Notes: generated by a model from the letters alone, not told the origin. A stretch of 64,000 nucleotides of DNA from Candidatus Aerophobetes bacterium Ae_b3b (GCA_005223085.1 NJBP01000002.1:1-64000), one strand, 5' to 3'; shown: positions 13,419 to 60,935, counted from the stretch's first letter. A program made the numbers and translations.

Positions 13419-13514
13419 CTTGTTCCTCCTTACATAGTTCAACCTTCGGCCAACGTTCCCCAGAGAAGCGGGCTTTCGACACTCCTCTCTTGACGACTTG
13501 GCTCACTTTTCCCT

Positions 13515-13567
13515 GAAAGCTTCTAAAAAGAAATTTAGTTATTTAACGCTTTTCTTCAGAAGCTTTC
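13515..13567 (-). promoter_or_regulatory. Leader inverted repeat upstream of binding protein A
   Basis: A perfect 10-bp inverted repeat (GAAAGCTTCT / AGAAGCTTTC), arms 33 bp apart, lies between the conserved leader element and the ribosome binding site of the solute-binding protein. Comparable repeats occupy the same place in the other two binding-protein leaders. Confidence 0.4.
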
Positions 13568-13576
13568 TCTTGTCCC

Positions 13577-13627
13577 AGCTACCGGCCTATGTACTTTCTC
13601 ACCCCCCTCCCGCCTTATTTTTAGACT
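13577..13627 (-). promoter_or_regulatory. Conserved leader element, copy A (degenerate)
   Basis: On the minus strand this shows the same order as copies B, C and D: a weak outer stem (AGTCTA with TAGCT, one bulge), AAAATAA, a GGC/GCC inner stem, and the loop sequence GGGAGGGGGGTGAGA. It starts about 160 nt upstream of the solute-binding-protein ATG and downstream of a predicted promoter. Confidence 0.45.
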
Positions 13628-13657
13628 TCCTTTCAAAAAAGACCTAACCTTGCTAAC

Positions 13658-13686
13658 TAATTATGAGCACATTCATTCTTTGTCAG
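13658..13686 (-). promoter_or_regulatory. Predicted sigma70-type promoter of ABC operon A
   Basis: Minus strand CTGACA (13681-13686), 17-bp spacer, TAATTA (13658-13663). It would start a leader of about 230 nt before the solute-binding protein. Confidence 0.4.
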
Positions 13687-13751
13687 TAATCATAGTGTGA
13701 AGTACTGTGTCTCTAGTCATGTCTCTTTTCTCATATTTTCTACTACGGGTT

Positions 13752-13823
13752 TTAAAGCGTATCCTTTGTCATGCCCTTGACGAATTCCTCAAGTTGGAGA
13801 ATAACCTCTCTAGACTGATTCAT
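13752..13823 (-). other. 23-codon ORF with strong ribosome binding site
   Basis: GGGAGG precedes an ATG that opens a 23-aa frame (MNQSREVILQLEEFVKGMTK and three more residues). It looks like the intact start of a gene that was truncated, or a leader peptide. I do not recognise it. The remaining part of the 13419-14000 intergenic space holds the promoter and leader described separately and nothing else I can identify. Confidence 0.3.
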
Positions 13824-14000
13824 TTTGACCCTCCCTTCTTGTCCATAGTTTTTCCCTGGAAAGGAGAATAGCAATTTTTCTCCTCCTTAACAAGAAGCAA
13901 TAATTACCGGACACAATATTTTTTATCCTCCTTAGCCTTCGCAAATTTCAATATCAGTTATTTTTCCCAGCTTTCAAATACGCTACAACATCGTATTTTC

Positions 14001-15419
14001 CTACTCCACCAAAAGTGGGGTACAGCCGGGCTCACCCTTTAGCTTCCTTAAGAACTCTGGAACCTTGCCACCGGCATCGGCAATTGCCAGATCTTTCATC
14101 CGCTCACAGATGTGAGGATACTCTTGGGCAATATTTTTTTCCAGTTTGGGATCAGCCTCTAAATCATAAAGAAGGGGGCTTTCACCCCAAAGATAAGCGT
14201 TATACCAATAGTGTCTGTCACGAACCATAACGAATGGTCCCCAGCCACAGGTAACATGATCGTATATCTCTTTTCCTTTGCCTAAGGCTAGAGGCCAAAT
14301 ATCTTTTCCATCCATGGGCTTTTCTGGCTCTATTCCTAATCTGGCAAGAATGGTGGCGGGTAAATCAAAGTTGTAAATTAGACTATCGCAGGTTGTACTT
14401 GCCCCTTCTGCTTCTGGATGGCGAATTATCAAAACCAAATCACAAATCTCTCGGCTCATGGGATGGCCTTGCTTTCCGACTATGTTATACTCACCAATGC
14501 AATGCCCATGATCAGAGATGAGAGCAATGAGAGTATTCTCCATTAATCCAAGATTTCTCATCTTCTCAATAAAATAACCTAGCCATCGGTCTACCAATGT
14601 TATCTCTCCGGCATAGTTTGCTCTAAGGCGTTTTAATACACGTGAGCTCAGTTGATCAACCGGACCATAAAGAGAGGATAAGAAGTCTATGGTATCATTA
14701 TCAGCATCATAGAGTTTTCTATAAGATTTAGGTGGATCCCAAGGCTCATGAGGATCAAAGGAATCAACCACGAGGAAGAACTTATCGGCATCTTGATTCC
14801 TCTCGAGCCAATTAGTAGCAGCTTTAAAAACCTGAGCAGGAAAATAATCCTCCTCACAATGTCTATCAGCCACATTAGTTAGATACTTGCCAACAAAATC
14901 TGTATAATTTCCAAATTTTTCTATTTTCCCAGATCCTCTTAACTTTGTTCTTAAATTTTCAGGTATGTGATTTTCAATCTCTTCCTCAGGTGGAGCAGGA
15001 CCTGAGCGATAAGGATCATGTTCCTGTCCTCTTATCCAGACCCACTCATCAAAACCACGATGAAAGTTCATTGATGGCTTAAACTGATGGTAAGTGTCGG
15101 TTATGAATGCCGTGCGATATCCATGCTGCTGCAGAATCTCAGTGATAGTATCACGTTCTTCGGAGATAGGCCCCCAGCCAGGTGAACCAATAAAAAGGTT
15201 GCCCCTGGAAGCTTTATGACCTATGAAGGGAAAGATATGACAGCCGGTTTGTAGAACTCTTCGAACCTGTAAAGTAGGAAGTGATTCTGGATAAGCATGG
15301 GTGAAAAGTACCGACTCTTTAGTTAAGGAGTCAAGATAAGGTGTTTTAATCCACTTATTTCCATAACAGCCTACATGATCCTGTCTTAAGGTATCAATGA
15401 TTATCAATACCACATTCAT
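14001..15419 (-). CDS. Sulfatase-like hydrolase, Thr-nucleophile type
   Basis: A 472-aa cytoplasmic sulfatase-fold protein. Motifs: IIDTLRQDHVGCYGNKWIKT, DSFDPHEPWDPPKSY, the metal-site ISDHGHCIGEYN. The active-site segment LPTLQVRRVLQTGC has Thr49 at the formylglycine position, and even the conserved Pro of CxPxR is Gln51. Thr-nucleophile chemistry on a phospho- or sulfo-ester is possible. GAGGAGGAAAT precedes the ATG. It lies downstream of one ABC importer and upstream of another, so it probably acts on an imported substrate. It is closest in motif layout to the 22.9 kb and 0.2 kb proteins. Confidence 0.85.
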   Translation of the reverse strand: MNVVLIIIDTLRQDHVGCYGNKWIKTPYLDSLTKESVLFTHAYPESLPTLQVRRVLQTGCHIFPFIGHKASRGNLFIGSPGWGPISEERDTITEILQQHGYRTAFITDTYHQFKPSMNFHRGFDEWVWIRGQEHDPYRSGPAPPEEEIENHIPENLRTKLRGSGKIEKFGNYTDFVGKYLTNVADRHCEEDYFPAQVFKAATNWLERNQDADKFFLVVDSFDPHEPWDPPKSYRKLYDADNDTIDFLSSLYGPVDQLSSRVLKRLRANYAGEITLVDRWLGYFIEKMRNLGLMENTLIALISDHGHCIGEYNIVGKQGHPMSREICDLVLIIRHPEAEGASTTCDSLIYNFDLPATILARLGIEPEKPMDGKDIWPLALGKGKEIYDHVTCGWGPFVMVRDRHYWYNAYLWGESPLLYDLEADPKLEKNIAQEYPHICERMKDLAIADAGGKVPEFLRKLKGEPGCTPLLVE

Positions 15420-15572
15420 CCCATTTCCTCCTCGTAGAGCTTTTTTTAAAATTATCAGCCTGCCTACTTATCCTTTGTGTAACGAGCATTACTCTATTAA
15501 AACTGGCAATTCCCTTTTATGAATATAAAACTTTGGGAGAAGTTATCCTGAAAATAAACTCAAATGCTTGCT

Positions 15573-15600
15573 AGTATAAACACACTATAGCTGATTACAA
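15573..15600 (-). promoter_or_regulatory. Predicted promoter for the 14 kb sulfatase-like gene
   Basis: Minus strand TTGTAA (15595-15600), 16-bp spacer, TATACT (15573-15578), about 150 nt upstream of the ATG. I see nothing else in the 15420-15792 intergenic space. Confidence 0.35.
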
Positions 15601-15792
15601 ATTAGCAAGGACAAAAGTCAACGTGACCCGTATCTTTCCTGTCTAATTGGGTGCAGAAAATTTCCGATTCGAGAAAAAATTACAAAGCTTCAAAGAAAAT
15701 TGAATTACATTGAATTTTCCATCAAGGCCTTACAAAGAACGAGAAGTCAGGATAGGTGTTTAGCCCTGTCTTTCTATCGCTGTAACAGCACA

Positions 15793-16641
15793 TCATTGCT
15801 TAACAGCCCCCGCCGCAAGTCCCGCAACTAAATGGCGCTGCAACAAAAGGAAGAAAATAACGGTAGGGACAGTAGCCACGACTGAGGCAGCCATCACTAC
15901 TCCCCAATCCGTTGTATACTGCCCAAGAAAGTTTGCTACCCCCACCGGTACGGTCTTTTTCTCAGTCTGGGTCATCAAGGTTAGCGCAAACACAAACTCG
16001 TTCCATGTTACTGCAAATGTATATGCTGAAGTTGCCACCAGACCCGGCAGGGAAATGGGCAAAATTACTCGAAAAATGACGCCCAGTGGTGAGCACCCAT
16101 CGACAACGGCTGCCTCATCCAAGACTTTGGGAATTGTCTCAAAGTAACCTAATAGCATATATATGGAGAAAGGTACCGTAATGGCGATATAGACAATGAT
16201 CAAACCCAGATAGGAGTTCACCAGGCGAAGGGCCCAAAACATCATAAAAACGGGGGTAACTAAGATTACCCAGGGGAACATTTGGGTAAAACCGACCATG
16301 GCCAATATTGAATTTCTCCCCGGGAAATGATAGCGGGAAATGGCATAAGCCGCTGGCGAAGAGATAAGCCAAACACAAACGATAGTAGCAGTCGTGCACA
16401 TAAACACGCTATTTAGAACGAAGCGGAAAAATCCAGCTTCAAGGATTCCCCGGTAATTTTCCAAGGTTAACGAACGACCGATCAATTGGAGTTCCCTGGT
16501 TAATAAATCAGTGGAAGGTTTTAGAGAACTAATAATCATCCAGAAGAAAGGGAATAGTATCAATCCAATGATGGCAAAAGTTACTACTACCACCGGTAAA
16601 TCGCGGATCCTTGAAGACATATTCTCTTCGCTCCATATCAT
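15793..16641 (-). CDS. Carbohydrate ABC transporter permease (MalG type)
   Basis: A 282-aa CUT1 permease with about six hydrophobic segments, EAA loop LDEAAVVDGCSPLGVIFRVI and C-terminal GLAAGAVKQ. The first ATG overlaps the stop of the upstream permease (ATGA), which favours translational coupling; a second in-frame ATG seven codons later has a purine-rich upstream region and could be used instead. It completes the importer encoded at 15.8-19.0 kb. Confidence 0.9.
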   Translation of the reverse strand: MIWSEENMSSRIRDLPVVVVTFAIIGLILFPFFWMIISSLKPSTDLLTRELQLIGRSLTLENYRGILEAGFFRFVLNSVFMCTTATIVCVWLISSPAAYAISRYHFPGRNSILAMVGFTQMFPWVILVTPVFMMFWALRLVNSYLGLIIVYIAITVPFSIYMLLGYFETIPKVLDEAAVVDGCSPLGVIFRVILPISLPGLVATSAYTFAVTWNEFVFALTLMTQTEKKTVPVGVANFLGQYTTDWGVVMAASVVATVPTVIFFLLLQRHLVAGLAAGAVKQ

Positions 16642-17627
16642 GCAGTTATATTTCGTTTAAAAAGAGTACTAAAATATACCAATGCGAATCCCATCATTAT
16701 CACCGTCATTATGACCCCAAAGGTTGCCCCGTACCCTACCTTGTAATTGACAAAGCTCTCGAAATACACATTGGTCCCCAGTACATGAGTAAAATCACCT
16801 GGACCTCCTCGGGTAGAGAGCCACACGTAAACAAAATTGTTAAATGTCCAGATTGTGATCATGAAACCCACGATGGTGATAATTGGTTTCAGAAGAGGAA
16901 GTGTGACATAACGAAGTTCATGAAACCAGCCCGCTCCATCGATTCTGGCAACTTCGTATAACTCCTGCGGGATGGATTGAAGCCCAGCAAGAAAACTGAC
17001 CACGGCGAACGGCAGCTCTCGCCATACCACTATTAAAATAATTGATAGCCAGACGACAGAAATATCAGTTAAGAAAAAAATCGGCTGACGTATCAATCCG
17101 AGGTTCTGAAGAGTTAAATTGACCACTCCGTATCTGCTATGAAGCATCCACTTCCAAATGGTTACCGCCACCACAGGAGGAACTCCCCAGGGTACAAAAA
17201 TAAGTATGCGCCCCATTCCGGCTAGGTGCCACCGCTTTAAGGCCTTGGAATTTAAAAGCAGTGCCAGTCCAAGACCCAGTAAAATCCGAAAAACCACCGT
17301 GGCCCCTGTGAGCCACAATACTGTGTTCTTAAGGGCATTATAAAACGCAGGATCCTCCGTGACCTTGATGAAGTTTTCCAGACCGACGAATTCTCCTCTT
17401 CCCTTGGCAGTCTCAAAAAGGCTAATCTTATGCAGACTGAGCTCTATATTATACAGGGAAGGTATGAAGAAAAAGAAGACCAGGAGGGCTACGGCGGGCA
17501 AAATCAACCCATAGGCGTGAAATCTAGGTCGATGAGACCTATGCAGCCTTCCCCAGAGATTATTACTCTTCCCCATTTCTAGCCCCCCTGTCTCCTTTTT
17601 ATCCTCACCTACACCATTTTCTTGCAA
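16638..17627 (-). CDS. Carbohydrate ABC transporter permease (MalF type)
   Basis: A 329-aa CUT1 permease with a charged N-terminal tail of about 40 residues, then about six membrane segments. The EAA loop reads YEVARIDGAGWFHELRYVTLP. It begins 3 bp after the stop of the binding-protein gene and overlaps the next permease by 4 bp, so the three genes form one operon. Confidence 0.9.
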   Translation of the reverse strand: MQENGVGEDKKETGGLEMGKSNNLWGRLHRSHRPRFHAYGLILPAVALLVFFFFIPSLYNIELSLHKISLFETAKGRGEFVGLENFIKVTEDPAFYNALKNTVLWLTGATVVFRILLGLGLALLLNSKALKRWHLAGMGRILIFVPWGVPPVVAVTIWKWMLHSRYGVVNLTLQNLGLIRQPIFFLTDISVVWLSIILIVVWRELPFAVVSFLAGLQSIPQELYEVARIDGAGWFHELRYVTLPLLKPIITIVGFMITIWTFNNFVYVWLSTRGGPGDFTHVLGTNVYFESFVNYKVGYGATFGVIMTVIMMGFALVYFSTLFKRNITA

Positions 17628-17630
17628 CTT

Positions 17631-18965
17631 CTAGGACTTCCCGGTTGCCTCTTGCAATGCCTCCTCAATAGCCTCCAGGAGATCCTTGCTTGCTCTTTCT
17701 ACTGACTTCTGACCCGAATAAACCGCAGCGAATTCACGGTTCGTAAGGGACCACATCGTCTGTACTCGAACAGGTGAGACAATATACTCATAGAATGTCT
17801 GTGCTTGCGGTATGAGTTTTACATATCCCTCGTATTCAGATGCATAGCTAACTTTTTCCAGAAGCGTTTTTTGGGCGGAGAACTGTTGTCGGTAATAGGT
17901 TTCAAATACATGCTCAGAGCACATCCATTTTAGAAGTTCCCAGGATTCCTTTAGATGTTTGGTATTCTTGTTGATGGCCAGAGTGCGCCCTCCCAAGTGG
18001 GTTCGCCGAGTCACCCTGCCTGCCGGAACCTGGGCAGAGGCTAGGGGTGCCTGGGGATTAGCGTCCATTGCCGCACGAAATGATTGAGGGGGCATGAATC
18101 CCATAGCAAAGTCACCTTTGGCCAGTCCATGGAGTATCTCGGGGTCTCCCCAGGAGTCGACGGCGATTAAGGATCGTGGGGAAATACCTTCCTCAAAGAA
18201 ACTATTGAAATACCGCATGGCTTCCGCAATTGCCTCGGCATCAACTCCAAGTTGCCAGGTACCATCGCCGTTTTGTTTCATAAAGGTATATCCGTGACTC
18301 CAAATAAAGTAGTTAACCAAGAACCACATTCCCCCGGTAGGGCCGCTGCCGGCTGGAAAAGCAAAGCCGTATCGATCTATTATTCCATCTCCATCACGAT
18401 CTTCGGTCAGTTTCTTTGCCACCTCTTTGAAATGAGACCAGGAATCGTCCGGAAAGCCAACAATACCCGCTTTGGCAAAGAAATCTTTTCGATATATCAT
18501 CGCGAAGGTATCAGTGGTCCAAGGGATTCCATAGACATCATCACCCATCTTTCCAAGCTCTAGCGCGACAAAATCATCAATTCCCCTCGGTAGTGGATAT
18601 TTCTCGAACAAGGGATTGAGTTTAACCAATGTACCAGCCTTGGCCAAGTCCATTGTCCATACAAAAGCAAGTTGGAGCACATCGGGGCCTCCACCAACTC
18701 CCGCTTCCCGGACAAATTGAGTAAGAGCATCTGACCAGGGTACTACCTCATATTGGACTTTGATGTTAGGATGCTTCCGGTCAAACTCTTGCACAGCTTC
18801 TGATAGGCCAGTAGCATCAGCCGGAGAATCGTTTTGCCGGAATATCAGACTAATCTTATCTTGGGCAAATCCGGCCATCCCGGTGACCAACGTTAAAGTC
18901 AAACTAAGACCTACTACTAAGACAAGCTCTATTAGTTTTCGTTTCTCAATTCTCATTAATTTCAT
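17631..18965 (-). CDS. Sugar ABC transporter solute-binding protein
   Basis: Family 1 periplasmic binding protein, 444 aa, with Sec signal ending at about GMAGFAQDK. Characteristic segments are FDRKHPNIKVQYEVVPWSDA, GGGPDVLQLAFVWTMDLA and the C-terminal KHLKESWELLKWM. An EF-hand-like DRDGDGIIDRYGF loop (a DxDxDG calcium-binding pattern) is present, as in several sugar-binding proteins. GGAGG precedes the first ATG. The 435-bp upstream space carries the predicted promoter, the conserved leader element and an inverted repeat. Confidence 0.9.
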   Translation of the reverse strand: MKLMRIEKRKLIELVLVVGLSLTLTLVTGMAGFAQDKISLIFRQNDSPADATGLSEAVQEFDRKHPNIKVQYEVVPWSDALTQFVREAGVGGGPDVLQLAFVWTMDLAKAGTLVKLNPLFEKYPLPRGIDDFVALELGKMGDDVYGIPWTTDTFAMIYRKDFFAKAGIVGFPDDSWSHFKEVAKKLTEDRDGDGIIDRYGFAFPAGSGPTGGMWFLVNYFIWSHGYTFMKQNGDGTWQLGVDAEAIAEAMRYFNSFFEEGISPRSLIAVDSWGDPEILHGLAKGDFAMGFMPPQSFRAAMDANPQAPLASAQVPAGRVTRRTHLGGRTLAINKNTKHLKESWELLKWMCSEHVFETYYRQQFSAQKTLLEKVSYASEYEGYVKLIPQAQTFYEYIVSPVRVQTMWSLTNREFAAVYSGQKSVERASKDLLEAIEEALQEATGKS

Positions 18966-19008
18966 TTACTTTACCTCCTATATACAGGCATGGTTCAATT
19001 TGCCGTCA

Positions 19009-19053
19009 AATTCTCCAAGGAAATCTTAATTACCAGAGATCCCTTGGAAAATT
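19009..19053 (-). promoter_or_regulatory. Leader inverted repeat upstream of binding protein B
   Basis: A 12-bp inverted repeat (AATTTTCCAAGG / CCTTGGAGAATT on the minus strand, one G-U pair) with a 21-nt loop, 44 bp before the ATG. It occupies the same position as the repeats in the two sister leaders. Confidence 0.45.
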
Positions 19054-19062
19054 CTTTGCCTC

Positions 19063-19116
19063 AAGCTAGCCTGGCCCCTTATCTCTCACCTCCCTCCTGG
19101 CCTTATTTTCTAGCTT
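19063..19116 (-). promoter_or_regulatory. Conserved leader element, copy B
   Basis: Minus strand: AAGCTAG, AAAATAA, GGCC, the loop AGGAGGGAGGTGAGAG and more, GGCC, three nt, CTAGCTT. The outer stem is 7 bp (19063-19069 with 19110-19116) and the inner stem 4 bp (19073-19076 with 19099-19102), with an asymmetric 3/7-nt internal loop. This exact geometry recurs in copy D. Confidence 0.55.
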
Positions 19117-19283
19117 TTGTTCCACCAAGCCAGATCGTGTTCTCCCAACCTCTCGGAAATTGCTTTATCACCTCGTCAGTTTATGGACCTCTTTTTAGAT
19201 ATCCCTTTCACCTCCCTTCAATTTCTATTTCTACTCTCTGTCTTCTCGTGATAACAAAAACCTTAATTTTTTTAAACTTTGTT

Positions 19284-19325
19284 CTCTCAAAACTTTATCT
19301 TAGGATGCGGCTATTAGAAAACCAA
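19284..19325 (-). promoter_or_regulatory. Predicted promoter and operator-like site of ABC operon B
   Basis: Minus strand TTGGTT (19320-19325), 17-bp spacer, TAAGAT (19297-19302), followed by GTTTTGAGAG (19284-19293). A near-identical GTTTTTGAGAG occurs twice just downstream of the promoter of ABC operon C, which suggests a shared regulator site. Confidence 0.35.
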
Positions 19326-19400
19326 CACCAGAGAGGTGTAGTTGTTTATCTACTATACCCTGTGATCGGCAGAAAAGCTATATTAAGTCCTTGCCCGTAT

Positions 19401-20708
19401 TTAGAAAGACCGACGATAAATTTGCTCCACATCTTCCTCAGTTGCTGGGACAGGATTCTTTTCTACACCTCTCCTCATAGTTTTAAACGCACCTTGGGCC
19501 ATATTCGAAATCTTATTTTGATCGATCTTCAATTGACTAAGATTTACTCTCAAACCCACCTTCTCCAGTAGCTCCTTTACTGCCTGGATACTCTTTTTTG
19601 CCTTCTCCTTAGTGCATTCACGTATCGATTGACCCATAGTTTTAGCTATCTCACAGTACTTATGCACAGTTTTTTTATCCCCGTTATCGATGTTAAACTC
19701 CATCACGTTAGAGGAGATGGCAGCTAAGGCCACCCCATGATCAACATTAGGATAATGTCCGCTTATCGGATGAGCCATAGCGTGGGGAAGAGCTGCAGAT
19801 GCGACGGCAATAGCCCAACCAGCGTAGGTATCAGCGAGGGCCATGTTGAATCTTGCCTCCATGTTATCTCCTTCCCGGTAGGCTGCAGGAAGATAACTGA
19901 AGACAAGTTCAATCGCCTTCAAGCAGTAGCTATCTACAATAGGATTACCCTCCCTGGATACAAAAGCCTCCAAAACATGGGCCAAGGTATCAAATCCTGT
20001 ACGGGCAGTTAGTTCTGGAGACATATTTTTTGCTATATTTAAATCTACAATGGATACCCGGGGATACATATACTCTGAACCGAACCCTGGCTTTTCACAC
20101 GTCTCAGGGTTGCTAATCACAGCATATCTGGTTACATGACTTCCAGTACCCGACGTGGAAGTCACAGCAATTACGGGTAATGTGGCCTCGGTTATAGATA
20201 GTGGTTCATCCTGTGTTACCGAGAAATCCCAGATAGAACAGGGGCTACTTTTAGAGTGCCCTGCCACTACTGCTATTACTTTTGCCGAATCCATAGCCGA
20301 ACCTCCACCCATGCCCACTATCACCTCACACTGGTTTTGTAAAGCCAATTTAGCCCCTTCATCCACTATATCTACGGTGGGATTGGGTTCTACCTTCCCA
20401 TAATGGAATACCTTAAGCCCTTCTTGCTCCAGATATTTTCTTGCTTTGTCCAAGAATCCCAATCTCTGCATGCTTTTTCTACCTGTAACCAGTAGGACAG
20501 ATTTACCCAGTTTTCTTGTCTCTTTACCGAGACTTTCCAGCGCTCCCTCTCCAAATATGAGGTTAGTTCGAGGAAATAGGTACCGAAATGTCATTTTCTT
20601 CTCCATCTGTAGTTTATGACTACTTTTGCTTACCCTGTCTTCTATATTTTCCAGCACTCCTTTACCAGACATTAACTCTGTTCTGGGTAGCAGATATTCA
20701 AAATTCAT
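19401..20708 (-). CDS. Iron-containing alcohol dehydrogenase
   Basis: NAD(P)-dependent group III alcohol dehydrogenase, 435 aa. It has GMGGGSAMDSAK (nucleotide binding), STSGTGS and the metal-binding region FDTLAHVLEAF...HAMAHPISGHY with the expected His residues. The N-terminus is odd: residues 1-38 (NFEYLLPRTELMSGKGVLE) repeat the true family start at residues 39-60 (TFRYLFPRTNLIFGEGALE). A second ATG at 20594 with GGAG upstream may be the ancestral start. The first ATG overlaps the stop of the upstream phosphodiesterase gene (ATGA), so the extended form is probably translated. It is likely to oxidise an alcohol or polyol released by the upstream hydrolases. Confidence 0.88.
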   Translation of the reverse strand: MNFEYLLPRTELMSGKGVLENIEDRVSKSSHKLQMEKKMTFRYLFPRTNLIFGEGALESLGKETRKLGKSVLLVTGRKSMQRLGFLDKARKYLEQEGLKVFHYGKVEPNPTVDIVDEGAKLALQNQCEVIVGMGGGSAMDSAKVIAVVAGHSKSSPCSIWDFSVTQDEPLSITEATLPVIAVTSTSGTGSHVTRYAVISNPETCEKPGFGSEYMYPRVSIVDLNIAKNMSPELTARTGFDTLAHVLEAFVSREGNPIVDSYCLKAIELVFSYLPAAYREGDNMEARFNMALADTYAGWAIAVASAALPHAMAHPISGHYPNVDHGVALAAISSNVMEFNIDNGDKKTVHKYCEIAKTMGQSIRECTKEKAKKSIQAVKELLEKVGLRVNLSQLKIDQNKISNMAQGAFKTMRRGVEKNPVPATEEDVEQIYRRSF

Positions 20709-22639: not shown

Positions 22640-22710
22640 ACCATGCTTCTCCCTAGTTCGTTAATGTGCCCTTCGCAAAATTCGAAAATCAGCTACTGCT
22701 ACTTTATCTC

Positions 22711-22887
22711 CTATCTGCTTGCGATAGAGTATCCATCAGTCCAGAGTTTTCTGCTGCAGCATCTTCCGCTTAGATGTAGGAACTCATACAAAATCTCATT
22801 CCTCGATATACTCTTTATTATATTCACCAGCTTTGCTGGAGTGTGCCTTGGTGGAGCTGAAAGGAAAAGATGGACATGACCCCTCAT
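22711..22887 (-). pseudogene. IS200/IS605-type TnpA transposase remnant
   Basis: A 58-codon frame encodes GHVHLFLSAPPRHTPAKLV and then IIKSIS...LWTDGYSIAS, which matches the middle of IS200/IS605 HUH transposases (HVHLF histidine pair, then PPKxSPAxVVKxIKG and LWSDGYFV). The N-terminal part and the region with the catalytic Tyr are gone. It fills most of the space between the phosphodiesterase and the sulfatase-like gene and shows that a transposon was once inserted here. Confidence 0.7.
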
Positions 22888-22897
22888 ATTGTAAGAA

Positions 22898-24268
22898 CTA
22901 CCTCACTGAAGTGTGAGATAACTCATACTGAAGCTGCAACATCTTTGTTTTCTGGGAGAAGGTTCTGTTTATCTCTTTTACTTTAAGGGTGAAATACCTG
23001 CCAAGATGGGATAAAAACTCCTCTACTTTTTCCGGATACTCGTCGATGAGGTTTTTTGTTTCTTTAGAATCCCCCTTTAAGTTATAAAGTTCATTTTTCT
23101 CCCCTTCAGGGTGAACAAGTAAGCTCCACTCTTTATCTCGGATGCACCGATGATATGATTCATGGTAACCGGTTATGATAAAATCTCTTATCTTCTCCTT
23201 TTTTCCCCTAACAACGGGCCAGAAGCTTTTCCCGGACATAGCCTGGGTCTCTTTTTTGAGATCCATTGCCTCCAGGATGGTAGGAAGAACATCAGGCATT
23301 TGAATGAGAGTATCAATCCTTTTCCCTGCATAAAGTCCCTCAGGAGGATGAATGAAAAGAGGTATTCTTATAAGCTCACCGTATAGATTATCCGGGGTCT
23401 TCATTATGGAGCCATGATCTCCATGAGGATGTCCATGATCGGAGAGGAGTGCTATAAGAGAGTTATCATAAAGACCACAATCTTTTATCTTCTCTAAAAG
23501 GTATCCCACCCACTTATCCACAAAGCTTACCTCTCCTGCATATAGAGCTTTCACATATTTTAGCTCCTCATCACTCATCCAGTCAACTTTTCCATATTGG
23601 GGATGGATGAGTTTGGGACCTTCATAATTAGGATTGGTATACATCTTATCAAAAGGAGAAGGAGGGTCCCAGGGCTCATGGGGATCAAAGGAGTCCACCC
23701 AGAGAAAGATCTTTTCCTCACCTTTATTGCGTTCCAGCCACCTTACCGCCTCCTGCATGACCTGGGCGGCAAAATAGTCTTCTTCTTTTTGCCAATGTTC
23801 GGTATTTTTCAAGTACTGCTCAAGCATTCCCTCCACAGGATCGCCTTTCATGGCTGGCTTTATATAACCATTGATATTCTTATTTAAAGGGCCTGACACA
23901 TAGGAGTCTGCCTCCTGTCCCCTTATCCAACGAAAGCAGCTAAATCCTCGGTGAAAGTTCATGTCAGGTTTAAATAAATGGTAGGTGTCAGCAATCAAGG
24001 CTGAGGTGTAGCCGTACTCTCTCAATATCTCTGAGATAGTTACATCCTCTTTGGTTAAGGGTTGCCAGGGTCGGTAGGGAAGGCTACTACATCCTGTGAA
24101 AAGCTCAGTTCTAGCCGGAATGGTGGGAAGACCTTCGGTGTAAGCCTCTTCAAAGAGGATACTCTCCTTAGCAAATTTATCTATATTGGGCGTCTTTATC
24201 CATGTATTCCCATAGCATCCCAGATGATCCTGCCTCAAACTATCCAGCATAATCACAATAAGGTTCAT
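22898..24268 (-). CDS. Sulfatase-like hydrolase, Thr-nucleophile type
   Basis: A 456-aa cytoplasmic sulfatase-fold protein. Motifs: MLDSLRQDHLGCYGNTWIKT, DSFDPHEPWDPPSPF and LSDHGHPHGDHGS. The nucleophile segment is LPTIPARTELFTG, with Thr49 where sulfatases have Cys or Ser. It retains Pro and Arg of the signature. AGGAGGAAAGTTG precedes the ATG used here. It is the first gene of a probable sulfatase-phosphodiesterase-alcohol dehydrogenase string, interrupted by a transposase remnant. Confidence 0.85.
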   Translation of the reverse strand: MNLIVIMLDSLRQDHLGCYGNTWIKTPNIDKFAKESILFEEAYTEGLPTIPARTELFTGCSSLPYRPWQPLTKEDVTISEILREYGYTSALIADTYHLFKPDMNFHRGFSCFRWIRGQEADSYVSGPLNKNINGYIKPAMKGDPVEGMLEQYLKNTEHWQKEEDYFAAQVMQEAVRWLERNKGEEKIFLWVDSFDPHEPWDPPSPFDKMYTNPNYEGPKLIHPQYGKVDWMSDEELKYVKALYAGEVSFVDKWVGYLLEKIKDCGLYDNSLIALLSDHGHPHGDHGSIMKTPDNLYGELIRIPLFIHPPEGLYAGKRIDTLIQMPDVLPTILEAMDLKKETQAMSGKSFWPVVRGKKEKIRDFIITGYHESYHRCIRDKEWSLLVHPEGEKNELYNLKGDSKETKNLIDEYPEKVEEFLSHLGRYFTLKVKEINRTFSQKTKMLQLQYELSHTSVR

Positions 24269-24513
24269 CAACTTTCCTCCTGTTTTTTGATCTTATCTAC
24301 TTTGCCTCTAGCCATAGTTTGGTTGGATATTCTGGTATTATTCATTACGAAAGGTAACCGTCAAAAAAATTGCAGGATGATCATAAGAAAGAACTAATCT
24401 CCTCGAGAAGAAATTTGAACCACGTCATACTCTCTACCTTTCTTTAAGAGCTCTACCGTAATCAAGTCACCGCTGAAGCCCTGGAAAATACTCATAATTC
24501 GGGATAGATTTCT

Positions 24514-25635
24514 TTATGAAGGTAAACTTTTACCTGTAGTAGGATCGAACAAGTAGATATTTTTTTCTCTAAAAGCAAGGAAAATTTGATCTCCAACCCC
24601 AAGCTCTTCTACCTCCAGAGGAGGAAACACTCCTCTCAATTTTATCCTGTCCCTTTCAAAATGTACCACTATCTCTCGACCAAATTTCTCTATTACCTCA
24701 ACACTCATCTTCAAGCTGCCTATGTATCCTCTCGGAGATCTTTGATTAGCTTTTACTATACAAATATCTTCTGGCCTCATTCCAATTACTACCTTGTCTA
24801 TATTACTTTCTTTAATAACTTGGGTTAATCTAGGGGACAGCAGAATCTTAAAATCTTTGTTTAAAAGAACTAATCCTCTTCCCTCTTTAAGTTTAAATTC
24901 ACAATCACCAAAGATGTTCATAGGAGGATTTCCAATGAATCTAGCAACAAATTTGTTTTTGGGTCTAAAATACACCTCCATAGGAGATCCTATTTGCTGG
25001 ATCTTTCCTTCATTTATAACAACAATTCGATCACTAATTGACATTGCCTCATTCTGATCATGGGTTACATGAATTATCGTTGCTCCAAGCTTTTGGTTTA
25101 ACCTACGTAACTCTGTTTGGAGTTCTATTCTCAATCGCGCATCTAGGTTAGCAAAGGGCTCATCCATCAGAAAAACTGAAGGATCTCGCACAATTGCTCT
25201 ACCAATAGCTGCTCGCTGTTGCTGTCCTCCACTTAACTCATGAGGCATTCTTTCAAGCAAATGTTCGATTCTAAGCAGGCGTGCAGCATTTTTTACTTTT
25301 TCCAAAATCTGCTCCTTAGAAAACTTCCTCTGCATACGCAGCCCAAAAGCAATGTTGTTTTTGATTGAAAGATGAGGAAATAAGGCAATACTCTGGAAAA
25401 CCATGGCTATATCTCGGTCCTTGGGAGGAAGATGGGTGACCTCTCTTTTCCCTATGAAAACTTTCCCCTGATCTGGCTGTTCGAGACCAGCTACACAATA
25501 AAGAGTTGTAGATTTACCACATCCACTGGGCCCTAGTAAGGTCATCAATTCTCCATCGTTAACCTTCAAATTAAAATCTTTGACCGCTGTTATCTTGCCG
25601 TATTTTTTGGTCAAATTTTCGAGTCTAGCTTCCAT
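24514..25635 (-). CDS. Sugar ABC transporter ATP-binding protein (MalK/UgpC type)
   Basis: A 373-aa ATPase: Walker A GPSGCGKST (residues 35-43), signature LSGGQQQR (134-141), Walker B FLMDEP (155-160), followed by a C-terminal TOBE-type regulatory domain with GMRPEDI and GFREK-like ends. It belongs to the operon with the two permeases and binding protein at 25.6-28.9 kb. As it is the only ATPase gene in the window and two other CUT1 importers lack one, it may energise all three, as MsmK does in streptococci. Confidence 0.93.
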   Translation of the reverse strand: MEARLENLTKKYGKITAVKDFNLKVNDGELMTLLGPSGCGKSTTLYCVAGLEQPDQGKVFIGKREVTHLPPKDRDIAMVFQSIALFPHLSIKNNIAFGLRMQRKFSKEQILEKVKNAARLLRIEHLLERMPHELSGGQQQRAAIGRAIVRDPSVFLMDEPFANLDARLRIELQTELRRLNQKLGATIIHVTHDQNEAMSISDRIVVINEGKIQQIGSPMEVYFRPKNKFVARFIGNPPMNIFGDCEFKLKEGRGLVLLNKDFKILLSPRLTQVIKESNIDKVVIGMRPEDICIVKANQRSPRGYIGSLKMSVEVIEKFGREIVVHFERDRIKLRGVFPPLEVEELGVGDQIFLAFREKNIYLFDPTTGKSLPS

Positions 25636-25638
25636 TCT

Positions 25639-26514
25639 TCATTCCCGTGATCTTGCAACTAATCCTCGTATTATCTGTTTTTGAGCTAATAAGATGACTA
25701 ACAATATGGGGATCATGGACACAACCGAGGCAGCTGTCACTAAATCCCAAGGCTGATAATATCCAACCGCAAATCGAAATATACCAATTGGAGCAGGCTG
25801 AGACGCCTTGGTGTGACTGAACAAGTTAGAAAAGAAAAATTCATTGTAAGTCATTATGAATGTCATTAATCCTACTGAAATAAAGCCCGGTAGGGCTAAG
25901 GGAACAATTACTTTCCAAAGAGCCTCAATCCTTGTGCATCCTTCAACTCGGGCAGCTTTCTCCAGATCCTGGGGTATCTGTTTATAGAACGCCTGAAGGG
26001 CCCAAACTGCTATTGGTAGCAAGTAAGCCGAGTCTGGTAAAATCATGGCAAGATGGGTATCTAACAAACCCCATCTGGAAAACATCTCAAATAGAGGGAA
26101 GAGAAAAGATACTTGAGGAAACATGGAAAGTCCCAGAATTGTGAGCATTATGATCATCTTCCCTTTGAGGCGGGCTCTACCAAAAACATACCCGGCTAAA
26201 CTTCCAGCAAATAAAATAATAATTGTTGTGGAGCCAGAAATAATGACACTATTTAAAAGGTACCTTTCAAAATCCATGAATTTCCATATCTTTATAATAT
26301 ATGGGCTAAGGTCAATACTCCTGGGTATAAGGTGTTGGATACGACTGTACAGTTCAGAGGGAGGTTTAACAGAAGACATGAATAACCAGTAAACCGGAAA
26401 TAAAGCCTGAAGAATAAAGATAGACACAAGTATCCAAAATGCTACTTTATAAAGTTTTGATCCATCCCCCTGAAATACTAATTTACTTGCCTTCTTTATT
26501 CCTTTTAAGATCAT
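25639..26514 (-). CDS. Carbohydrate ABC transporter permease (MalG type)
   Basis: A 291-aa CUT1 permease, about six hydrophobic segments, with EAA loop LEKAARVEGCTRIEALWKV and C-terminal IIRGLVARSRE. Its ATG overlaps the stop of the MalF-type permease by 4 bp (ATGA), and its own stop lies 3 bp before the ATPase start, so the order is binding protein, MalF, MalG, ATPase in one transcript. Confidence 0.9.
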   Translation of the reverse strand: MILKGIKKASKLVFQGDGSKLYKVAFWILVSIFILQALFPVYWLFMSSVKPPSELYSRIQHLIPRSIDLSPYIIKIWKFMDFERYLLNSVIISGSTTIIILFAGSLAGYVFGRARLKGKMIIMLTILGLSMFPQVSFLFPLFEMFSRWGLLDTHLAMILPDSAYLLPIAVWALQAFYKQIPQDLEKAARVEGCTRIEALWKVIVPLALPGFISVGLMTFIMTYNEFFFSNLFSHTKASQPAPIGIFRFAVGYYQPWDLVTAASVVSMIPILLVILLAQKQIIRGLVARSRE

Positions 26515-27527
26515 TTTCTTCTTTTCTCCATATATTGAATGAACACCAGGTAGGCCAATATAATAAGAAAAGTAAATATCATTGTCATCGTAGCTATTGC
26601 ACTTCCTTTTCCGATGTTCTTCGCAGTGAAAAAAGTCCTTATCGTTAATAACTGCAAGGTCTCGGTAAGTCTCCCTGGCCCTCCGCCTGTCATAGTCTCA
26701 ATAATGCCATATATCCTCATCGCTGTAATTGCCCGCCATAGCACCACTACTGTTATAGCTGGCATAATAAGGGGAAGGGTAATGTGCCGAAAGATCTGCC
26801 AGGTGTTCGCCCCATTTACCTTAGCTACTTTATAATATTCCGAGGGTATCGACTCCAGAGCTGCAAGTAGTAATAATGTACTGATAGGAATATTTCGCCA
26901 TACTGCTGCAACAATAACAGCATTCATAGCTACAGCTGAGTACATCCAGTTAAATACATGGGAGTAAGATAGCAACCATGGAATGTATTCTTCTATGAAT
27001 CCTGCTGACTTCAACAGATAGTTAATAACTCCATATTCGCTACTATACATTAGTTTAAAGGTTATACCTGCAATAGCTATAGGAGTAGCCCAAGGTACCA
27101 GAAGTGCAGTTCTAATAATAGCCTTTCCTTTAGTTTGTTTGGAGGCAAGAAAAGCACCCATCATTGCAAACAGGAGCATAAAAACAATATTTAAAACAGT
27201 AAAATAAAAGGAATGGAGAAGAGCGGCAAAAAAGATTGGGTCCGTCAAAAGGGAGATGTAATTGGCAAGCCCGGTGAATTTATACTCCAGCCAGGGTTTG
27301 GTCGGTGCATATTGGTGAAAGCTCACCCAAATTGTTCCAAGGAGAGGAACCCCGATTATTACGGTAAGTAATAGGATAAGGGGACTTAATAGGAGAAGAC
27401 AAAAGTGCCCCTCCGATAGTCTTTCCACCCATAGACTGAATTTACCGGGTATACCTCTTATCCCATTTATGAAAAGACCCAGGGAAACCGTTCTTAGTTT
27501 CCCTGGGCTGTTTCTCCCTTTTACCAT
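26511..27527 (-). CDS. Carbohydrate ABC transporter permease (MalF type)
   Basis: A 338-aa CUT1 permease with an N-terminal soluble tail of about 40 residues. The EAA loop reads YYKVAKVNGANTWQIFRHITL. Its first 17 codons contain a perfect 11-bp inverted repeat (27478-27507), so the start of the mRNA region forms a hairpin that may hold down translation relative to the binding protein. No good ribosome binding site precedes the ATG, which fits coupling to the upstream gene. Confidence 0.88.
   Translation of the reverse strand: MVKGRNSPGKLRTVSLGLFINGIRGIPGKFSLWVERLSEGHFCLLLLSPLILLLTVIIGVPLLGTIWVSFHQYAPTKPWLEYKFTGLANYISLLTDPIFFAALLHSFYFTVLNIVFMLLFAMMGAFLASKQTKGKAIIRTALLVPWATPIAIAGITFKLMYSSEYGVINYLLKSAGFIEEYIPWLLSYSHVFNWMYSAVAMNAVIVAAVWRNIPISTLLLLAALESIPSEYYKVAKVNGANTWQIFRHITLPLIMPAITVVVLWRAITAMRIYGIIETMTGGGPGRLTETLQLLTIRTFFTAKNIGKGSAIATMTMIFTFLIILAYLVFIQYMEKRRK
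27478..27507 (-). promoter_or_regulatory. Hairpin at the binding protein-permease junction
   Basis: A perfect 11-bp inverted repeat (CCCAGGGAAAC / GTTTCCCTGGG), 8-nt loop, lies 29 bp past the stop of the binding-protein gene and inside the first codons of the permease. It is the functional counterpart in position of the hairpin at 12056-12098. Confidence 0.5.
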
Positions 27528-27535
27528 ATCACTGT

Positions 27536-28909
27536 TTACTTTTTCCTTCCATACTCTTCCTCGATCTTCCTCATACCGGCTTCAAGACGTTGAACAGCTT
27601 CCTTCACATCGTACTGGCCAATTAGCATAGGCTTAAGTACATCTATCAGCAGTGCTCTCAGCTCCCCGTAGACCGGGCTGAACGGCCGCTCATTAGCGTA
27701 TTGAACTGCTTGCCCAATGGTTCTCGCATAGGGGGCAAGCAAAGGGGAAACTTCTTTAATTTTCTCAGGAGTGAAAAGAGCCGAGTAGGGAGGTAGGGCT
27801 CCCATAGCGTTAATGAGGAAGAGCAATGAATTGGGCTCTGCTGCTGCTTGAATTACCTTTACTGCTGCCCTCTTGTTCTTGGAGTTGGGATTCACTCCCC
27901 ACCACCATCCCCCCATTGAACTGTTGCCATGAGGAGACATTGCCGAGTAAAGTGGTGTCGCTGCCCATTTCTCGGAAGAGAGTCCAGTTACCGGTTCCAA
28001 TTGAGTAATTCCGAAGTTCCAGAGTCTCATAAAAACGGACTTACCGGCACCAAACATCCTCATCGCGTCACTGTTATTCCAACTGATAGCTTCTTTAGGC
28101 ATAATCTTGTGCTTTAAATACAAGTCCTGCCAGGCCTTCAGAGTCATAATAACCTCGGGGGCATCAGCGGTTATGGGACGGTCTCCTACCGGTCCATAGA
28201 GATACTGTTTTCCTCCGTAGAGATATCCGTCAAAAGCCCGCAAAAGCTCAAAGAAGAAGCCATCAAAACTTCCACCCTCATGGGGAGCGATCCAGCCGTA
28301 AGGAACACCTTCTTTTTCAGAGACCTTTTTAGCAGCATCAATGAGGTTGCCCAAGCTGGGGTTACTGTCAAACTGTAAGGGAGTAACCTTGTATCCATAT
28401 TTTCCTAAGAGATCCTTCCGCACGTAGAGAACTCCTACCCCGAACCGCCAAGGAACAGCATAGTACTTGTTACCCCATGCCGCAGCATAAATACTTTGGT
28501 GTACTGGAAAAAGTCGGTTCCAAAAATCTTTGGGCATGTGTTCCATCAGTGCTTCCGCATCTAGCCATCCTGCAGTAACATATTCTGCATAGTCCTCTAC
28601 GGTAAGACTGGTGAGGTCCGGTAGTGACTGTCCAGTTATCATAATTGTGGCAACTTCTTCCCTTTCCTTGGGGACACTGACATCAGAACGTCCAGGAACG
28701 AATTCGACTTTTATATCTTCTCCCATTTTTATTACATTGTCTTGAACGATGGATTTCCACTTCTCCCAGTTCTCATCAGTCATTCCCTTATTAGCCCGGA
28801 ACTGAACTTTAGTGGTAGCCCCAGCGGTACCGAGGCTAATCCCTGCTAGGATAAGGCAACTCAAAGCCAATATACAGAGACTTCTGCAAACATTTGCTTT
28901 TGCTCTCAT
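27536..28909 (-). CDS. Sugar ABC transporter solute-binding protein
   Basis: Family 1 periplasmic binding protein, 457 aa. The Sec signal ends near LGTAGATTKVQF. Recognisable parts are TIMITGQSLPDLTSLTVEDY, WGNKYYAVPWRFGVGVLYVR (domain hinge) and the FSPVYGELRALLIDVLKPML region. GGGAGG precedes the ATG. The first gene of the only ABC operon here that carries its own ATPase. Ligand unknown. Confidence 0.9.
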   Translation of the reverse strand: MRAKANVCRSLCILALSCLILAGISLGTAGATTKVQFRANKGMTDENWEKWKSIVQDNVIKMGEDIKVEFVPGRSDVSVPKEREEVATIMITGQSLPDLTSLTVEDYAEYVTAGWLDAEALMEHMPKDFWNRLFPVHQSIYAAAWGNKYYAVPWRFGVGVLYVRKDLLGKYGYKVTPLQFDSNPSLGNLIDAAKKVSEKEGVPYGWIAPHEGGSFDGFFFELLRAFDGYLYGGKQYLYGPVGDRPITADAPEVIMTLKAWQDLYLKHKIMPKEAISWNNSDAMRMFGAGKSVFMRLWNFGITQLEPVTGLSSEKWAATPLYSAMSPHGNSSMGGWWWGVNPNSKNKRAAVKVIQAAAEPNSLLFLINAMGALPPYSALFTPEKIKEVSPLLAPYARTIGQAVQYANERPFSPVYGELRALLIDVLKPMLIGQYDVKEAVQRLEAGMRKIEEEYGRKK

Positions 28910-28973
28910 ATTTTCCCTCCCTGAAATATGGTTCGAATTTCTAGGAAAGCTCTCATCAAGAAAAAACCATGAG

Positions 28974-29024
28974 TTAACAACCTACCTCGAGAACTTCCTT
29001 TTCCTGAGCTGACAGCCTACTCAT
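28974..29024 (-). other. Possible 16-codon leader peptide
   Basis: In leader copy C the conserved AGGAGGAGGTGAG is followed by an ATG that opens MSRLSAQEKEVLEVGC and stops. The spacing to the purine-rich sequence is good for translation, but the peptide is not conserved in the other copies, so the ATG may be fortuitous. Confidence 0.2.
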
Positions 29025-29056
29025 TCTCTCACCTCCTCCTGGCCTATTTTTAGCTC
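29006..29056 (-). promoter_or_regulatory. Conserved leader element, copy C
   Basis: Minus strand: GAGCT, AAAAATAG, GGC, loop with AGGAGGAGGTGAGAG, GCC on the other side, four nt, AGCTC. Outer stem 29006-29010 with 29052-29056, inner stem 29015-29017 with 29041-29043, internal loop 4/8 nt. The first outer pair is G-C here and A-T in copy B. It lies about 100 nt upstream of the binding-protein ATG. Confidence 0.5.
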
Positions 29057-29114
29057 TTCTCTTACCGACAATCCAGCTTCACTACTACTTGTGAGGATTT
29101 TTCGAGCAGCATTT

Positions 29115-29204
29115 CTCTCAAAAACTTTCCTTAACAATGTTCACTCTCAAAAACATTGACAAAACATCCATCGAGATTATACCAAAAAAGAGCCGCTTTG
29201 GCAA
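29115..29204 (-). promoter_or_regulatory. Predicted promoter with tandem operator-like repeats, ABC operon C
   Basis: Minus strand TTGCCA (29199-29204), 17-bp spacer, TATAAT (29176-29181): a near-consensus sigma70-type promoter. Just downstream are two direct copies of GTTTTTGAGAG (29144-29154 and 29115-29125), 18 bp apart, in a position suited to repressor binding. The IclR-type gene nearby is a candidate regulator. Nothing else is seen in the 28910-29269 intergenic space beyond the leader element. Confidence 0.5.
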
Positions 29205-29269
29205 GACCACCCTCGTTTTAGTTTCGCCTTCTAACCTGCATTCCTCATCGATCCAGAAAAGATTGCCCC

Positions 29270-30247
29270 TTACTCTCCCTTCAGCATCTCCCTTCGTTTG
29301 TTGAGCAGAGATTCAATAGCTTCTATATCTTCATTGGAGAGAGTCCACTTTGCTGCAACAACATTTTCCTCAATTTGAGATTGTCGTCGTGCCCCTACGA
29401 TAGCTGCGGTTACCTCGGGACGTCGTAGCACCCAACCAATCGCCACGTGCGCCACAGTGATATCATTCTTTTTGGCAATAGACCGTAGGCCCTCAACCAA
29501 CGCAAGATTAGCGCCTAACTCGGGTTCCTGAAAATGAGGATCTCTATCACGCCGATGGTCATCGTGGGGCAAGCTGTGTATCCACTCCTTGGTGAACTTC
29601 CCGGTCAAAATGCCCTTTTGCAGGGGACTGTACACAATGACACCGATGTTGTTGGCTGCACAATAATCCAGCAGCCCTTCCTCCACACCCCGCTCGAGCA
29701 TACTGTAGGGCGGCTCGAGTGAAGCCACCGGATGAATGGGCTGGATACGTTGGAGTTGTTCTACGTTGAAATTAGAAACTCCAATGTAGCGGACCTTCCC
29801 CTCTTTTACCAGCTCGGCCATGGCAGCCCAGCCTTCCTCAATATCTTTGTCGGGATCTGGCCAGTGCATTAGATACAAATCAATAACCTCGACCTTTAGT
29901 CGCCGGAAGCTTGCCTCAATTTCGCGGCGGATACTGTCTTTGGTCAGTATGCCAGATATCTTCCCCTTTGAGTCCCACTTCCGACCGCACTTGGTAACAA
30001 GGATCACCCGCTCACGTATTCCTTTGATAGCCCTGCCCACGACCTCCTCTGAGTGACCAAATCCGTATACTGGAGCGGTATCTATCCAATTTATCCCTAG
30101 TTCCACACCTCGCCGGATCACAGCAATCGACTGTTCGTCATCCTGGGGACCCCAACTCCATGTCCACCCGCTTCCTCCAATTCCGGCCGTCCCTAGTCCA
30201 ATGGTTGATAGGCTAAGCCCTGTGTAACCCAGTCTTCTTGTCTTCAC
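29270..30247 (-). CDS. Aldo/keto reductase
   Basis: NAD(P)H-dependent oxidoreductase of the TIM-barrel AKR family, about 325 aa. The catalytic Asp and Tyr are seen in GINWIDTAPVYGFGHSEEVVG, the Lys in VILVTKCG and the His in YLMHWPD. NADP-binding C-terminal part reads AIVGARRQSQIEENV. It would reduce a sugar or ketone. The second of two adjacent GTG codons, 7 nt after AGGAGG, is the likely start. It stands alone between the ABC operon and the IclR-type gene and probably belongs to the same catabolic programme. Confidence 0.88.
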   Translation of the reverse strand: MKTRRLGYTGLSLSTIGLGTAGIGGSGWTWSWGPQDDEQSIAVIRRGVELGINWIDTAPVYGFGHSEEVVGRAIKGIRERVILVTKCGRKWDSKGKISGILTKDSIRREIEASFRRLKVEVIDLYLMHWPDPDKDIEEGWAAMAELVKEGKVRYIGVSNFNVEQLQRIQPIHPVASLEPPYSMLERGVEEGLLDYCAANNIGVIVYSPLQKGILTGKFTKEWIHSLPHDDHRRDRDPHFQEPELGANLALVEGLRSIAKKNDITVAHVAIGWVLRRPEVTAAIVGARRQSQIEENVVAAKWTLSNEDIEAIESLLNKRREMLKGE

Positions 30248-30411
30248 CACTACGCCTCCTCGCAAGTCTTATAAAGGGTCAATTTTCGATGAGTAAGCGC
30301 TACCACACCTGAGGTTCTCTTCCTCAGGCCAGAAGTATATCTAGCCCCCGAGCCTTGCTTTCTGACCACCAAAAGCATATCTCCTGCCTTACGTTTCTTC
30401 CAATTCTTCTT

Positions 30412-30528
30412 TTACCTGCTCGACACAGCTGCGTCCATAATTCTACTCACGTAAGTAATTATCTCGCCTCCTTTTATTTCCATTTCTCCACGTATGGAGC
30501 CATCCCCGGCATATAAAATTTTGATCAC
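30412..30528 (-). pseudogene. Truncated GATase1-like N-terminus
   Basis: GGGAGG precedes a GTG that opens a 38-codon frame: MIKILYAGDGSIRGEM then KGGEIITYVSRIMDAA. The start resembles the KxLYxGDG opening of a family of glutamine-amidotransferase-like (ThuA/GATase1) proteins, and the frame then stops. It is probably the first part of a deleted gene; the orphan leader element copy D lies about 260 bp upstream. The assignment is tentative. The rest of the 30248-31027 space holds only that element and a hairpin. Confidence 0.35.
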
Positions 30529-30791
30529 GCCTCTTACCTCCCATTCTTATTTTTGAGATCCAGCTTGCGATTCTGACAGAATAACAAAGTTCCTTTTATC
30601 CTAATTATGATTTGAACATGGTTGCAGGGTCAAGCAGGCGTGGTATCTTAAGTCTGACCAGTCTGTTTCCACCCTTTTCGTCTGGTGACGCCTCAGCAGC
30701 CATACCATAGATCTATCTCTTGTTCTCGCCTCTTCAAACTGGACTCGACCTTTTCGGTGACATGGCTTTCCTGGCTACTTCACATATCTCC

Positions 30792-30866
30792 AAGCTGGAT
30801 CGGCCCTCCCTACCTGTCGGCGGACTACCTAACTCCTCACCTCCTGTCGGCCCTATTTTCCAGCTT
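30792..30866 (-). promoter_or_regulatory. Conserved leader element, copy D (orphan)
   Basis: Minus strand: AAGCTGG, AAAATAG, GGCC, loop with ACAGGAGGTGAGG, GGCC, three nt, CCAGCTT. Outer stem 7 bp (30792-30798 with 30860-30866), inner stem 4 bp (30802-30805 with 30849-30852), internal loop 3/7 nt. Geometry is identical to copy B, with an A-T to G-C compensatory pair. No complete gene follows directly, only a truncated frame. Confidence 0.5.
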
Positions 30867-30968
30867 TGCCGCCTTCAAAAGATCTGAAGAACTGGTTTTG
30901 TAGCCAGTGCAAACCGCTTTCGACCTTTCTTTTGCTTAGGATGGAGATTGAGCCATGAAAGAACAATA

Positions 30969-60588: not shown

Positions 60589-60646
60589 CTATTGTTCGAC
60601 AAAAACCCTCATTACCTTTTATGCGAAGAAGGAGGGTACACACACA

Positions 60647-60842
60647 TAGGCAGGTCTTCTGGCTCCCGGTGACCTCAATCTTGAGTTTTTCTACTCTCCG
60701 CGCCTTCCCATCTCACTGGCTCATCAAAATTACTACATCAAGAGACAGTGGCCTAGTGCGGATTTCGCTACCGGTTACAGCGGCGCAACCGCGAGGGTTT
60801 CTCACCCTCTTCCCTTTTAAGCCCACATAGGGCACCTATATA
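60647..60842 (-). promoter_or_regulatory. Cobalamin (adenosylcobalamin) riboswitch
   Basis: Minus-strand sequence has the B12 element in order: AGGTGCCC near the 5' end, AAGGGAAGAGGGTGAGAAAC, the B12 box core GCCGCTGTAACCGG, GCCACTG, GGGAAGGCGCGGAGAGTAG, and GAGCCAGAAGACCTGCCT at the 3' end. Followed by a terminator and btuB-tonB-TPR genes. The 60450-60935 space holds nothing else. Confidence 0.95.
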
Positions 60843-60935
60843 CTTCAACCAGGACATTAAAGAGCAGATATTTTATAATACTGTATCAAGAATTTTTGTC
60901 AAATTGAACGTTCCAAGATTCCCTCATTTAGTGAA

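Follow-up and report, generated by a model that had tools for sequence, protein, structure and literature searches.

A structured leader RNA of Aerophobetes with a strong Shine-Dalgarno loop and no start codon, found mainly ahead of substrate-binding protein genes

Introduction

Several kinds of bacterial RNA resemble the element described here. The malK-type and other orphan cis-regulatory motifs are structured leaders that stand before ATP-binding cassette (ABC) transport operons, second-messenger riboswitches occur in many copies per genome ahead of functionally related genes, ANTAR target RNAs consist of two stem-loops with six-nucleotide loops, and RNase J is the nuclease that is blocked by the 5' stabilisers of Bacillus. 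In those stabilisers, leaders with a strong Shine-Dalgarno (SD) sequence stabilise messages even where no start codon follows (STAB-SD and the aprE/gsiB/ermC type; PMC3997798), while the standby site of tisB relies on protein S1 and on a sequestered ribosome site (PMC7708055). Here we describe an element found in a 64,000-nucleotide stretch of Candidatus Aerophobetes bacterium Ae_b3b (NJBP01000002.1:1-64000; hereafter the window). It is a previously undescribed structured RNA that heads messages, a dispersed cis-acting module that we call the binding-protein leader RNA of Aerophobetes, and its central feature is an SD sequence stronger than those of the genes that follow, with no start codon behind it and conserved stems around it.

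Like the Bacillus stabilisers, which lie upstream of long-lived messages, the leader combines a stem-loop, which may lie near the 5' end, with a strong SD sequence that lacks a start codon in the 5' untranslated region. The Bacillus stabilisers are single-gene sequences, whereas the Aerophobetes leader has two covarying hairpins and a conserved tail, recurs as many as about 30 times in a genome ahead of genes for one class of protein, and belongs to genomes where RNase J was not found. It shares with the malK-type orphan motifs a place before transporter genes, but has no match in Rfam 15 and spans at least six binding-protein families. Unlike ANTAR targets it has no pair of hexaloops, and ANTAR proteins were not found in 11 of the 17 carrier genomes. 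With tisB of E. coli it shares structure on the 5' side and, about 100 nt before the ribosome site, an open region for ribosome contact (PMC7708055), but in the leader that region is directly complementary to the anti-SD and the gene's ribosome site is mostly predicted open.

A folded RNA conserved across Aerophobetes

From its 5' end the element, about 145 nt in all, consists of an outer stem P1 (typically AAGCTA/TAGCTT), the motif AAAATAR, a GGCC/GGCC stem P2 closing a loop of about 20-35 nt that holds GGAGGTGA, a single long hairpin as the second (P3), and the tail AATGAACNATGTC. Most copies, not all, carry P3 and the tail, which is strongly conserved across the 53 best-matching copies; AAAATAR, the loop core and the tail are conserved in unpaired state between covarying stems. 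At two loci (L101 and L116), an additional strong hairpin (TATGGTGCCACATGGCGCCATA / TATAGTGCCATACGGCACTATA) separates P3 from the position of the tail.

All four minus-strand sites picked out by a first-pass annotation of the window (copies A to D, Table 1) belong to this one RNA. The core pattern, allowing up to three mismatches, occurs three times in the window against 0.01 expected from shuffles, and all four sites were recovered by covariance models seeded without them, the E-values of these purpose-built models being rough. A model of the 5' domain seeded with seven copies, all outside the window (R1), gave per-genome E-values of 1.2e-8 for C, 1.9e-8 for D, 2.4e-7 for B and 1.4e-3 for A, and a full-length model (R3) gave 8e-16 for A, 1e-13 for C, 2.5e-11 for B and 4e-5 for D. 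The layout that the annotation had proposed for all four sites holds for the core parts; it had overlooked the larger half of the element (P3 and tail), and the outer stem of A is degenerate at about 3 bp. Copy D has no clear second hairpin. A further match at 49685 (+) in the window was taken as a chance match and disregarded; it is present in the seed of model R2, where its score is inflated.

Compensatory changes argue for folding throughout the element. Across 97 aligned copies, two-sided changes occur at 28 of 30 pairs, with 229 two-sided cells against 82±9 in shuffled data, although the copies are related to one another and their alignments had been fitted to the model, which biases these counts in favour. 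None of 500 shuffles attained any of the covariation measures, sliding the partners by one column lowered the paired fraction from 88.6% to 63-66%, and the 5' domain taken alone shows two-sided changes at 10 of 10 pairs. The compensations can be read directly in the sequences: the annotated outer-stem series (AAGCTAG/CTAGCTT, AAGCTGG/CCAGCTT, GAGCT/AGCTC) is visible as described and is joined by AGGCT/AGCCT and GGCT/AGTC. Candidate pairings that were rejected include a switch helix between the upstream sequence TAGATCTTT and the 5' strand of P1 (-4.3 versus -3.4 kcal/mol shuffled, scarcely better), a helix between the tail and the P2-P1 linker as suggested by one fold, at L016 (no covariation, permutation fraction 0.12), and pairing of the tail with 16S rRNA (equal to shuffled at best).

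Evaluating its distribution, we found that a loose pattern returned seven copies in the window genome (2.04 Mb in 86 contigs), more in ten related genomes and none in 44 unrelated genomes. A pattern scan of about 85,000 genomes returned 18 contigs, 16 of them from Candidatus Aerophobetes and two filed as archaeal metagenome-assembled genomes, one from Bathyarchaeota (L140, ahead of a binding-protein operon) and one from Aenigmatarchaeota (L144, ahead of an alpha-galactosidase-like open reading frame (ORF)), both of which are probably misbinned Aerophobetes contigs. R1 had matches in all 17 genomes of the phylum (31 in the window genome; two further genomes had 27 and 26, and the remainder fewer), R3 gave 97 matches including all four window sites, and the refined model matched none of 273 bacteria outside the phylum. 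The element is specific to Aerophobetes, a phylum known here solely from metagenome assemblies, which are incomplete. Rfam 15 has no model that matches it above the gathering threshold or at lax E-values, the exact pattern had no match in viral contigs, and a search of the openly accessible literature revealed no publication on riboswitches or RNA motifs of Aerophobetes. With copies throughout the phylum, covariation in the stems and no known Rfam family, the annotation's proposal of a new structured leader RNA is upheld.

A Shine-Dalgarno sequence without a start codon

The 3' end of the 16S rRNA of the window genome, GGCTGGATCACCTCCTTT, terminates in GGATCACCTCCTTT, and the loop core GGAGGTGA, present in exact form in 71 of 104 copies, is a near-perfect complement of this anti-SD. 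Its duplex with the anti-SD has a median of -18.2 kcal/mol, whereas the ribosome sites of the genes themselves, which are recognisable and mostly predicted open (64% of sites are more than 0.5 unpaired), have a median of -11.6. Substitutions in the core comprise 18 A to G changes at two A positions and 10 G to A changes at five G positions, and most of those at the A positions retain a G-U pair with the anti-SD. ATG falls within the start-codon window behind the loop at 3 of 102 sites, against 23.8 expected when the same bases are shuffled.

Genes downstream of the leader

The first ORF begins at a median of 104 nt past the 5' domain at readable sites; within the window, copies A to C lie about 95-156 nt ahead of binding-protein start codons, as had been annotated. 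A hydrophobic N-terminus is encoded by 83 of the 98 ORFs downstream of a leader; for the other ORFs of the window the figure is 7 of 39. Among 97 downstream proteins, Pfam assignments were SBP_bac_1 (42), SBP_bac_5 (18), Peripla_BP_4 (7), DctP (3), Peripla_BP_6 (3) and TctC (2), which, if the families are counted as mutually exclusive, makes about 75 substrate-binding proteins, drawn from six or more families. Because these proteins span unrelated transporters (ABC, tripartite ATP-independent periplasmic (TRAP) and tripartite tricarboxylate) and unrelated substrates, peptides and branched-chain amino acids included, this is a binding-protein leader rather than a sugar riboswitch, and the annotated association with sugar-import operons proved too narrow. 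Among the exceptions to the binding-protein rule are a groES-groEL operon, short-chain dehydrogenases, a sulfatase and an aminotransferase. The window genome has 41 SBP_bac_1 genes, and of 30 such loci searched for the leader, 16 have a strong match (E < 1e-4) and a further 6 a weak one, with orientation and upstream place correct in all but two (one is the leader of a neighbouring binding-protein gene, the other stands before a permease).

Proposed function and alternatives

We tentatively interpret the leader, with a probability of roughly 0.45, as a module serving the expression of extracytoplasmic substrate-binding proteins: it would dock 30S subunits without initiation and thereby stabilise or boost the messages. 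P1 and P2 would keep the anti-SD complement open in a loop towards the 5' side of the message, where a 30S subunit could dock without initiating because no start codon lies behind the loop. The docked subunit, together with the 5' stem-loop and the strong P3, would shield the message against decay from the 5' end, and/or ribosomes would be kept near the start of the gene itself, about 100 nt downstream, and the binding protein would be produced in excess. Docking is what the complementarity of the loop suggests, and stabilisation of the message as its outcome is put forward more cautiously.

A cell needs more of a binding protein than of its membrane partners, and the setting of this ratio is usually explained gene by gene, while here a whole phylum appears to set it by one dispersed RNA module across unrelated transporter families. 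If the 30S subunit does dock, this would be, to our knowledge, the first natural RNA class built around an SD sequence without a start codon. A phylum in which neither of the usual 5'-end nucleases, RNase J and RNase E/G, was found also offers a clear test case. More speculatively, the leader could form a phylum-wide post-transcriptional system in which a start-codon-less docking RNA marks the binding proteins of all transporter types and ties message stability or output to the supply of free 30S subunits.

Several observations weigh against docking and stabilisation. RNase J has no match above cut-off in any of the 17 Aerophobetes genomes, and RNase E/G was not found in them either (RNase Y was not searched for). 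Promoter-like sites, which are consensus matches only, place the transcript start about 20-40 nt before P1 at just a quarter or so of the sites, suggesting proximity to the 5' end for only some of the copies. The depletion of start codons comes from related copies and not from independent events, and docking leaves both the tail and the conserved AAAATAR unexplained.

Those conserved unpaired segments, held within covarying stems and repeated many times per genome ahead of functionally related genes, would suit a riboswitch-like RNA whose input is a general nutritional or second-messenger signal and which makes one regulon of all binding-protein operons. We regard this as unlikely: there is no terminator (a U-run follows P3 at 1 of the 53 sites with a clear tail), the ribosome site of the gene is mostly predicted open rather than sequestered, the best-conserved segment is a plain anti-SD complement, and the tail and the P2-P1 linker, taken as alternative partners, do not covary. 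The missing terminator and the ribosome site predicted open make a classical riboswitch improbable, but do not count against signal-sensing RNAs of every kind; of the riboswitch suggested in the first-pass annotation, the sugar-sensing form is made unlikely by gene content, and the general-signal form is retained as a rival. The strong loop without a start codon also fits a standby or loading site on which a 30S subunit waits before passing to the start, which lies about 100-150 nt further along; in the manner of tisB, translation would then be raised and not stability. With the genes' own ribosome sites recognisable and mostly predicted open, such a site is not needed, and a very strong SD would retain the subunit instead of releasing it, which makes standby a similarly improbable account.

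A still less probable role is that of a target, either for an RNA-binding protein or for a C-rich trans-acting small RNA pairing with the GGAGGTGA loop; conservation of loop and tail and the regulon-like scatter of copies agree with it. CsrA, for which the GGA in the loop made it a candidate, is ruled out, being absent from 17 of 17 phylum genomes while control genomes were positive. The annotated idea of an ANTAR antiterminator target, raised by an ANTAR protein gene near copy D, is not borne out either, as ANTAR was found in only 6 of the 17 genomes though the element is in all of them, and the loops are not ANTAR hexaloops. That a short leader peptide is made from the loop SD or from an ATG in the tail is very improbable. 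The near-perfect SD and the ATG, GTG or TTG retained in 40 of 53 tails would allow it, but start codons behind the loop are depleted, the tail start varies to ATA, GCG and others, and tail ORFs end at any point from 2 codons on and stand in every frame with respect to the gene. Promoter regions duplicated recently and lacking any RNA function would account for the upstream sequence common to some copies; phylum-wide compensatory changes in P1, P2 and P3 contradict this, as do recognisable promoters that shift or vanish while the leader is retained, and we give it hardly any weight.

Other features of the window and of leader loci

The coordinates of the four copies and of the other features are given in Table 1.

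Table 1. Features in the window and at other leader-bearing loci
Feature	Locus	Position	Strand	Remarks
Copy A, 5' domain	window	13574..13629	-	degenerate P1, AAAATAA, P2, SD-like loop GGGGGGTGAG; outside R1 training
Copy A, P3 hairpin	window	13515..13567	-	GAAAGCTTCT...AGAAGCTTTC
Copy A, tail	window	13495..13508	-	AAGTGAGCCAAGTC
Gene downstream of copy A	window	12129..13418	-	SBP_bac_1 solute-binding protein
Copy B, 5' domain	window	19061..19118	-	P1 AAGCTAG/CTAGCTT, P2 GGCC/GGCC, loop AGGAGGGAGGTGAG
Copy B, SD core	window	19086-19093	-	
Copy B, P3 hairpin	window	19008..19054	-	stem 15 bp
Copy B, tail	window	18987..19000	-	AATTGAACCATGCC
Gene downstream of copy B	window	17634..18965	-	SBP_bac_1 solute-binding protein
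Copy C, 5' domain	window	29004..29058	-	P1 GAGCT/AGCTC, P2, loop AGGAGGAGGTGAG
Copy C, P3 hairpin	window	28943..28999	-	
Copy C, tail	window	28925..28938	-	ATTCGAACCATATT
Gene downstream of copy C	window	27539..28909	-	SBP_bac_1 solute-binding protein
Copy D, 5' domain	window	30790..30868	-	loop enlarged; P1 AAGCTGG/CCAGCTT; weak P3 and tail
Next gene after copy D	window	29273..30250	-	aldo/keto reductase, about 540 nt downstream
ANTAR protein gene	window	32182-32337		near copy D
Cobalamin riboswitch	window	60632-60854	-	105.9 bits
ORF following the cobalamin riboswitch	window	58563-60449		628 aa, signal-peptide-like start
Second upstream stretch	L005	1538-1780	-	
Second upstream stretch	L007	1250-1487	+	
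Second upstream stretch	L109	60-302	+	
Second upstream stretch	L081	1484-1760	-	
Second upstream stretch	L104	about 1290-1394	-	

Just upstream of several leaders lies a second conserved stretch, common to several genomes, in which a terminator-like hairpin is followed by CAAAGGAGCTTATGGGAATATCAGGG...CCCTGATGGTCTGGTCCGCAGGCTCCTTTG. Its predicted fold is better than those of shuffled sequences (z about -3), Rfam offers no match for it, and it is possibly another undescribed structured RNA. Another upstream block, TTTATAACTTGAGTTAAGAAGACGGATAATT, precedes the leader at L008, L103, L125 and L097, which belong to different genomes. Elsewhere in the window, a cobalamin riboswitch stands ahead of an ORF with a signal-peptide-like start.

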